DNA of 53,198 nt from NCBI GenBank assembly GCA_009885945.1, contig VFJR01000051.1:1-53198 (forward strand), given 5' to 3'. A model generated the notes under the pieces. It was not told the origin of the DNA, did no database searches, and saw only the letters and a program-made list of their open reading frames with translations. Of this stretch, positions 51,022-53,198 are shown in pieces. This DNA comes from Anaerolineaceae bacterium. Its GTDB lineage: Bacteria > Chloroflexota > Anaerolineae > Anaerolineales > Villigracilaceae. The position numbers were made by a program, and so were the translations under genes. Positions within the stretch are counted from its first letter, which is position 1. The number at the start of each line of letters is the position of its first letter.

Positions 51022-52296
51022 ATGACAACCTCCCGCATTTCGGGATTCTACAATTTGACTCTTGACCAGCGGCGGCTTAAGCTGGCTGAAGTTTCGCATC
51101 TAACTCCTGTGGAGCTGATCCCGTTTACCGAAGGTCTCCAAGCTGAGACAGCCATGCACATGGTTGAGAACATGGTGGGCATATATAGCCTGCCCTTGGG
51201 AATTGGACTTAACTTTATGGTCAATGGACGTGATGTACTCGTTCCCATGGTCATTGAAGAGCCATCTGTGGTGGCGGGCGCATCCTTTATGGCAAAACTT
51301 GCCCGCGCTGGCGGCGGATTCATTACCTCTAGCACTCAGCCTGAGATGATCGGTCAATTGCAAGTGTTGGACATTAAAAATGTGCAAGAAGCCGCCAAAA
51401 AAGTCCTTGAACGTAAATCTGAATTAATTGATTATGTAAACAGTGCCGACTCATCTTTGGTAAAACGGGGAGGTGGTGCGCGTGATATCGAAGTCCGAGT
51501 TATCGAATCGTCTATTATCGGTTCTTTCCTCGTTGTTCATCTAATTTATGATGTGCGTGATGCGATGGGCGCGAATGCGGTCAATACAGCTTGTGAACGC
51601 CTTGCTCCTAAGATAGAAGCGATGACTGGCGGGCGTGTGCATTTGCGTATACTGTCGAATTTAACAGATCGAAGGCTCTCTCTCTCGCGTTGCGTGATCC
51701 CCGTCAATGAATTGGCGTTTGATCATTTCTCTGGTGAAAAAGTTCGCGATGGAATTATCGAAGCCTATGCTTTTGCAGAGAGTGATTCATACCGTGCCGC
51801 GACACATAATAAAGGAATCATGAATGGCGTAGATTCAGTTGTAATTGCAACTGGCAACGATTGGCGTGCTATCGAAGCTGGCGCTCATGCATACGCAGCT
51901 CGAAGCGGACGGTACACTTCATTATCCACTTGGGAAAAAGATGGCGATGGAAACTTGGTTGGTACACTCGAAATGCCAATGGCGGTAGGAATCGTCGGAG
52001 GGGCAACCAAGGTTCACCCGGGCGCTCAATCCGCAGTTAAATTAATGAACGTAAGCACTGCATCCGAATTGGCTGAAGTGATTGTATCTGTTGGGTTGGC
52101 ACAAAACATGGCGGCGTTGCGCGCGCTGGCTACCGAAGGCATTCAACGTGGACATATGTCCTTGCACGCGCGCCAAGTTGCAATTGCGGTGGGCGCATCT
52201 GGTGAGTTGATTGAGCAGGTTGCAAGCCAAATGGTGATGGAGCAGGTTGTGCGAATTGAAAGAGCGCAAGAAATTTTGAGAAATTTAGAAGGGTAG
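51022..52296 (+). CDS. Hydroxymethylglutaryl-CoA reductase, class II (degradative type)
   Basis: A 424-residue class II HMG-CoA reductase. It begins SRISGFYNLTLDQRRLKLAE and has the catalytic-glutamate region VPMVIEEPSVVAGAS and the later TGNDWRAIEAGAHAYAARSG with the conserved Asp. The C-terminal segment RGHMSLHARQVA carries the His expected in the catalytic site. In bacteria the enzyme serves either the mevalonate pathway to isoprenoids or mevalonate breakdown. The direction cannot be decided from this gene; no other mevalonate gene is in the window. Confidence 0.93.
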   Translation: MTTSRISGFYNLTLDQRRLKLAEVSHLTPVELIPFTEGLQAETAMHMVENMVGIYSLPLGIGLNFMVNGRDVLVPMVIEEPSVVAGASFMAKLARAGGGFITSSTQPEMIGQLQVLDIKNVQEAAKKVLERKSELIDYVNSADSSLVKRGGGARDIEVRVIESSIIGSFLVVHLIYDVRDAMGANAVNTACERLAPKIEAMTGGRVHLRILSNLTDRRLSLSRCVIPVNELAFDHFSGEKVRDGIIEAYAFAESDSYRAATHNKGIMNGVDSVVIATGNDWRAIEAGAHAYAARSGRYTSLSTWEKDGDGNLVGTLEMPMAVGIVGGATKVHPGAQSAVKLMNVSTASELAEVIVSVGLAQNMAALRALATEGIQRGHMSLHARQVAIAVGASGELIEQVASQMVMEQVVRIERAQEILRNLEG

Positions 52297-52327: not shown

Positions 52328-52996
52328 ATGAAAGACGAAAACATGCTTTGGCAAATACGTCGTTTTGTATATCAGCATTTTGCAGATATAGCGCGCGCGC
52401 CTCGTGTGGATGAAACTGCTAGTCGCTTCAAGATTAGCGTTAATGATGCAGGTGCATTTTATACAGAGCTAAACAATCGTCACGCTTTTTTTCTTGAACC
52501 AAACACCTTGGATATTCGTATGGCTTTCCCTTTTTCTGCAGCCCCAACGGATTTTACAGTTCAGGCAAATGGAAAAACATATTTTGCCAACTGCGCCTGG
52601 GATATGCTCGGTATTCCTACTGCTTTACATTGCGATGCGCTTATTGATGCGAAATTTTCTGAAAGTAACGAGCCCGTTCAATTGGAAGTAAAAGAAGGCA
52701 AAGTTACGAATGGCGAATTACTCATTCACTTTCCTTTACCTTTCACTCGCTGGTACGATGATTTGGTCTTCACCTGAGCAACCATGCTTCTCTTCCAGTC
52801 GGAAGAGTGGATTGATAAGTGGTGTAAGCGCAACTCCCTCGAACGCGGAGAAGTACTTACCGTGAATCAACTTTGGGAACTAAGCCAGCCTTGGTATGGC
52901 AACCGCCTCTCTGCCGATTTTCGCGGACGTAGCGTTGAGCAGGTTGCGGAGATTTTTAGAGGGGCAGGGTTGAAGTCAAAGTTTTGGTATAGGTGA
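52328..52996 (+). CDS. MerB-like (organomercurial-lyase family) protein with in-frame UGA, candidate selenoprotein
   Basis: One 222-residue frame if the TGA at 52775-52777 is read as selenocysteine; otherwise a 149-residue product. The N-terminal part has a winged-helix-like region, then NCAWDMLGIPTAL with C89 and D92, which match C96 and D99 of MerB by their CxxD spacing. The frame continues past the UGA in the same phase with ATMLLFQSEEWIDKWC, the usual MerB-family C-terminus, and ends at TGA 52994-52996. The UGA falls at residue 150, 61 residues after C89, close to the 63-residue spacing of C96 to the catalytic C159. A perfect 7-bp stem with loop AGUC follows (see 52775-52807). Alternatives are a nonsense mutation or read error. 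Whether it cleaves C-Hg bonds is unknown. Confidence 0.7.
52775..52807 (+). promoter_or_regulatory. Putative bacterial SECIS element after the in-frame UGA
   Basis: After UGA (52775-52777) and 12 bases, CTCTTCC (52790-52796) pairs perfectly with GGAAGAG (52801-52807) around the loop AGTC. The loop G-U lies 24-25 bases from the U of UGA, close to the position of the SelB-contacting G-U in the E. coli fdhF SECIS as I recall it. The U-U mismatch below the stem resembles the bulged U of known elements. Confidence 0.55.
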
Positions 52997-53049: not shown

Positions 53050-53198
53050 ATGAACACAATGACTGAAAGAAAACCGCTCACTTCCGAAGAAATCTCCGCC
53101 ATTGTGGATGGAGTCAATCCTATTGATTGGGTGCAAATGGAACTATTGGCAAAAATGCCGCCTGGAAAAAGAGTTTATCCCAGTCTGCAAGCCAGCGC
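53050..53198 (+). CDS. N-terminal part of an unrecognised protein (3' truncated by the window)
   Basis: An ATG at 53050, with GAGG just before it, opens a frame that continues to the end of the window (MNTMTERKPLTSEEISAIVD...). A second ATG three codons later is an alternative start. The 49 visible residues show no motif I recognise. Confidence 0.45.
   Translation, partial: MNTMTERKPLTSEEISAIVDGVNPIDWVQMELLAKMPPGKRVYPSLQAS

Follow-up and report, generated by a model that had tools for sequence, protein, structure and literature searches.

What becomes of an in-frame UGA in a gene that otherwise reads as a member of the MerB organomercurial lyase family? The window analysed here (the whole 53,198-nt stretch of contig VFJR01000051.1 from an Anaerolineaceae bacterium, phylum Chloroflexota; assembly GCA_009885945.1) carries close to its end a frame whose sole interruption between 52328 and 52996 is a TGA at 52775–52777, and which a standard ORF call splits into two pieces (52328–52777 and 52784–52996). 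The first-pass annotation, made from the letters alone, had taken this UGA to break one continuous frame and had proposed a candidate selenocysteine (Sec) form of MerB; the reading frame bears out the former, and the latter gains support, at the level of sequence, from sel genes, a conserved TGA and a conserved stem. The features on which the argument rests are as follows.

51022–52296, forward strand: upstream neighbour gene, putative HMG-CoA reductase (named from recognised sequence features), 31 bases before the MerB gene
52328–52996, forward strand: predicted Sec-containing MerB-family gene (Sec-MerB), with ATG start at 52328 and terminal stop TGA at 52994–52996; 222 residues if UGA is read as Sec
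52592–52594, forward strand: TGC codon of C89, at the MerB Cys96 column
52601–52603, forward strand: GAT codon of D92, at the MerB Asp99 column
52775–52777, forward strand: in-frame TGA, predicted Sec150, at the MerB Cys159 column
52790–52807, forward strand: bacterial SECIS-like hairpin CTCTTCC-AGTC-GGAAGAG, with a 12-nt spacer after the TGA and a perfect 7-bp stem

Domain and structure searches placed the read-through product in the MerB family. Pfam model PF03243 (MerB) matched residues 69–191 (93.7 bits against a cut-off of 27; E = 1.1e-26) and hence spans the UGA, in keeping with the earlier claim that the part after it is the MerB C-terminus in the same phase. In a phmmer comparison with solved structures, C89 and residue 150, which lie 61 residues apart, aligned to Cys residues of MerB2 (PDB 5c17), the aligned chain having Ser at the Asp99 column where Sec-MerB has D92. 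C89, D92 and the UGA column were all invariant in an alignment of 21 sequences, and the assignment of the UGA to the catalytic Cys159 position, with both C89 and D92 intact, was thus upheld. An AlphaFold model of the window protein (mean pLDDT 90) retrieved exclusively MerB and MerB2 entries at E <0.001, and superposed on MerB2 5c17 with a VIA Z of 18.5 over 190 residues. Its N-terminal 70 residues resemble winged-helix folds by structure match, as do those of MerB itself. A search of viral contigs with the Sec-MerB alignment found no relative.

Homologues were collected with six peptide patterns that left out the UGA codon, scanned against the genome contigs of GTDB. The scan returned 28 loci, from Anaerolineales, other Chloroflexota, one member of the Chloroflexia (~45% identity) and one of the Gemmatimonadaceae (34%), and all 28 had an in-frame stop at the Cys159 column, which excludes a chance in-frame TGA. 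Altogether, a TGA at this column was found in 74 distinct homologous sequences from Chloroflexota and one Gemmatimonadota genome, and the internal stops at this position within the Sec-MerB clade were TGA without exception. More broadly, the MerB domain was matched in 44 of 301 whole genomes of the same order, the non-classical matches mostly carrying one or two TGA codons, and in 59 of 400 genomes of a phylum-wide sample. A tree built from 93 MerB proteins put 44 UGA and four Cys rows in the Sec-MerB clade, the Cys rows forming two separate lineages within it; in this clade, the column held either TGA or, in sel-less genomes, Cys, and no further sense codon was seen. This is the pattern by which bacterial selenoproteins are recognised, namely a UGA kept at a Cys column for which Cys homologues exist. 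The notion of a pseudogene or sequencing error, in which translation really ends at the TGA and what follows is a remnant (as the two ORFs of the standard call might suggest), retains next to no probability and is refuted by the identical TGA, with both halves conserved in frame, across dozens of independent genomes and assemblies at 34–76% identity.

Two further observations concern the same column. Four Cys forms (L057, L058, L183 and L185), from two selA-less Chloroflexota genomes and two Pseudomonadota plasmids, carry a further Cys in the Asp99 column (NCAWC, APCMWC, APCLWC), giving a three-thiol site. A 'merB' on a Rubrobacter radiotolerans plasmid (NZ_CP007515.1:103195-103464; L184:2450-2719) is annotated short, ending at the TGA of the Cys159 column; as the frame after this TGA is shifted, it looks like a decayed copy.

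The second line of evidence is the hairpin downstream of the UGA. The first-pass annotation had noted a perfect 7-bp stem with an AGUC loop starting 12 bases after the UGA and had likened the loop position to that of the fdhF SECIS, and both descriptions held. With a 4-nt loop, 7 bp, 19 nt from UGA to loop and a fold energy of −14.4 kcal/mol, the window hairpin falls within the bSECIS constraints of PMC13188914 (loop of 3–9 nt, upper stem of 4–16 bp, a G among the first two loop nucleotides, UGA-to-loop distance of 16–37 nt and MFE of at most −7.5). The E. coli fdhF SECIS, a sequence matched under fdhF in 5,368 genomes of that species, has a GGUC loop 18 nt past the UGA, compared with [A/G]GUC at 19 nt in Sec-MerB, and its stem differs in sequence from the perfect 7 bp of the window. 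Rfam returned no SECIS match on the window. The hairpin pattern occurred once in the window against 0.01 occurrences expected by chance; on its own, the structure was modestly unusual (z −1.8; p 0.006–0.03 versus synonymous codons), such per-sequence tests being weak, as the stem is in part set by the encoded amino acids.

It is therefore the comparison across homologues, and not single-sequence statistics, that makes the hairpin decisive. Of the 74 distinct UGA sequences, 73 had five or more consecutive base pairs enclosing an [A/G]GUC loop, with the spacing unchanged, so that the stem is conserved across homologues, with compensatory changes, as the earlier proposal had asked to be checked. 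Cys sequences mostly had 0–1 bp at this position; the two Cys members of the clade L057 and L058 had five and four pairs, respectively, with a different loop (AGGA). Compensated changes from C-G to U-A occurred at pairs 1, 2 and 7, counting from the loop, and covariation was pronounced, with 14 cells altered on both sides versus 5.0 in shuffles (0 of 500 shuffles reached as many). When the stem was slid out of register as a control, the share of paired stem cells was 47–63%, compared with 93.9% in register. Codon choice follows the stem as well: the Ser codon was TCG in 65/65 sequences after CGG or CAG, but TCA in 8/8 after TGG, restoring the pair. For instance, in a group of ~250-aa relatives with two UGAs, a Trp codon (TGG) dictates U at pair 1, and the Ser codon after it changes from TCG to TCA; likewise, replacement of Glu by Lys (AAA) was compensated by a change of the Phe codon from TTC to TTT.

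As to the machinery for Sec insertion, the suggestion to look for sel genes was largely rewarded. The source genome encodes selA (548 bits) and selB (332 bits, above cut-off) as well as a selD fragment at a contig end (G000:C122:16668-16914; L162) that has its own in-frame TGA and a possible hairpin, followed by a frameshift. What did not turn up in the source assembly (fragmented into 209 contigs) was tRNA-Sec, and a tRNA search of the window and the surroundings of selA and selB yielded no tRNA of any kind; at the level of the order, tRNA-Sec was present in 239 of 301 genomes, and in three sampled cases ARAGORN assigned it a UCA anticodon. Among order-level genomes with the one-TGA form, 26 of 27 had selA above cut-off, the 27th (G002) having a fragment at a contig start, and all 17 UGA genomes tested across the phylum had it. 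As selA is common (241 of the order's 301 genomes score above cut-off), this co-occurrence is weak by itself, and the informative part is the presence of Cys in selA-less genomes: no selA scored above cut-off in four genomes with Cys proteins inside the clade (G010, G037, G319, G375), nor in G337, a congener of G319 with an unread protein, sampled as a near relative.

These data also bear on whether the UGA might be read in another way, through near-cognate readthrough, reassignment to Trp or Cys, or programmed truncation to two products. Any selenoprotein gene may undergo partial termination, which would here yield a 149-residue product that keeps C89 and loses the second thiol. As a full explanation, such readings are nevertheless very improbable, given that the replaced residue is always Cys, that a SECIS-type hairpin follows and that Cys forms of the clade sit in selA-less genomes; moreover, TGA is also the terminal stop of Sec-MerB and of three further long ORFs in the window, so UGA is not reassigned. 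With the TGA and hairpin conserved, sel genes present and Cys confined to two selA-less lineages, Sec insertion at the UGA is very likely, as far as sequence can tell.

Relatives outside the large clade extend the theme to both catalytic positions. Its sister group (support 100/100; L113–L117, L175, L177–L179) shows UGA at the Cys96 as well as the Cys159 column, and one further sister-group member, L174, combines Cys at the first catalytic position with UGA at the second. Five of the double-UGA members (L113–L117) run on into an AAA+ ATPase domain (Pfam AAA, 27.6 bits in one member). A distant group of ~250-aa proteins (L118–L123, L176, L180) likewise has UGA at both catalytic Cys columns. In the double-UGA genes, a hairpin also follows the first UGA; in the ~250-aa group, it recurs as CCCTT-CGTGC-AAGGG, with a compensated change in L122. 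An isolated UGA was found within the classical part of the tree (L172), without the shared hairpin. Inspection of the flanks of double-UGA genes by eye revealed no recurring metal gene, and no description of double-UGA forms was found in the literature searched, most subscription journals falling outside its scope. Chloroflexota probably harbor a radiation of Sec MerB-like lyases, plus Sec/Sec diselenolate lyases outside mer operons; in this radiation, Sec would have arisen at least three times, in the large Cys159-column clade, in the ~250-aa double-UGA clade and in one classical-side member.

If Sec is inserted, the remaining question is what the protein does. MerB cleaves carbon–mercury bonds with two thiols and an Asp proton donor. 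Since the MerB catalytic set is complete, the best inference is that Cys89 and Sec150 capture the metal while Asp92 donates the proton, and the gene is likely to encode a MerB-type organometal lyase with Sec at the second catalytic thiol (Cys159 of MerB), as predicted from its sequence features. In the proposed mechanism, SelB loaded with Sec-tRNA would bind the hairpin (loop RGUC, 19 nt past the UGA) and insert Sec150; Cys89 and Sec150 would then trap the cation of an organomercurial or similar organometal, the carbon would be protonated by Asp92, and the metal ion would depart to a thiol or selenol carrier. Being softer and deprotonated at neutral pH, the selenol should allow tighter binding of Hg(II)-like metals and faster capture. 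Homology would make methylmercury the default substrate.

Genome context, by contrast, points to a role other than mer detoxification. In 25 compared loci of Anaerolineales, the Sec-MerB gene comes after a putative HMG-CoA reductase gene, and HMG-CoA synthase- and thiolase-like genes (named from recognised sequence features) lie downstream. The recurring neighbours in the window and in loci L026–L051 were dnaA, a GAF/histidine-kinase-like gene and mevalonate-pathway-like genes only; no mer genes were among the conserved neighbours, and Sec-MerB was linked neither to merA nor to other mer genes. In the source genome, no mer genes adjoin Sec-MerB and family matches to MerA stayed below cut-off (best 344 of 454 bits), so that mercury is a presumed substrate. 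We tallied MerA by hand from result tables for 80 genomes: it scored above cut-off in 11 of the 14 that carry classical Cys MerB (eight of these within 3 kb of merB), in 8 of 34 genomes of the UGA clade (26 of 34 without; within 3 kb in none) and in 1 of 19 genomes without MerB.

Two side observations belong to these surroundings. The cut-off end of the window (53053–53198) encodes the start of a small protein (MTERKPLTSEEISAIVDG), relatives of which recur downstream in several loci, where they precede a nucleotidyltransferase-like protein. Separately, four MerA-like frames with one in-frame TGA each were seen (G117:C27:19421-20776, G115:C134:5907-7262, G603:C430:1405-2757, G045:C38:7121-8476).

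The reading that survives best beside an organometal lyase accepts Sec as real and gives the protein another cellular job, in binding or trafficking another metal(loid), in processing an endogenous organometal or thiol substrate, or as a redox or sensor protein. The mevalonate-type neighbours in place of mer operons, the scarcity of merA in UGA-form genomes relative to classical ones and the winged-helix-like N-terminus (shared, however, with MerB) all lend it weight; C89, D92 and Sec150, invariant in 21 sequences, fit the same chemistry as MerB and count against it. We consider this reading a genuine but less than even prospect, and hold to a MerB-type lyase as the likely activity; without linked mer genes, it is possible that Sec-MerB acts on another organometal(loid) or has a housekeeping role.

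Sec is usually seen as a redox residue, while here it is predicted to replace the metal-capturing thiol of a lyase. The replacement would be widespread in a major environmental phylum, where Sec-MerB has apparently been kept through vertical descent. Comparing the Sec and Cys variants of a single enzyme, with the natural Cys forms among them, would permit a direct test of what selenium contributes to C–Hg cleavage. Environmental MerB surveys likely miss or truncate such genes, as the Rubrobacter plasmid 'merB' illustrates, and, if methylmercury is indeed the substrate, these genes would form a large overlooked reservoir of demethylation genes.

A Sec-containing MerB-like protein as such has already been predicted. 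SaoL (NF040728), a MerB-like organometallic lyase selenoprotein with the motif CU, is listed in PMC9312934 and PMC13188914 and credited to Haft & Gwadz 2023. Like Sec-MerB, SaoL is MerB-like with one predicted Sec; it is set apart by its listed motif (T-U-A in Sec-MerB) and by model score, the window protein reaching 41.5 bits and the whole set 22–57 bits against a cut-off of 140, far short of that model's threshold. Among the predicted prokaryotic selenoproteins in Table 4 of PMC7435645 (2020) is 'Organic mercuric lyase MerB2', an entry that resembles Sec-MerB by name and idea and may denote the same family. The main texts of the deep-Sep, ISME 2016 and GOS 2008 papers make no mention of MerB. 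The curated NCBI MerB models scored far below cut-off on the window protein (34 versus 193 and 32 versus 200 bits), and none of the scanned sequences passed the cut-off of any NCBIfam MerB-type model. With MerB and MerB2 (PF03243; PDB 3f0o, 5c17), Sec-MerB agrees in fold and in the Asp and the two catalytic thiol columns; the difference is that those enzymes have Cys at the Cys159 column, whereas Sec-MerB is predicted to carry Sec there and is unlinked to merA.
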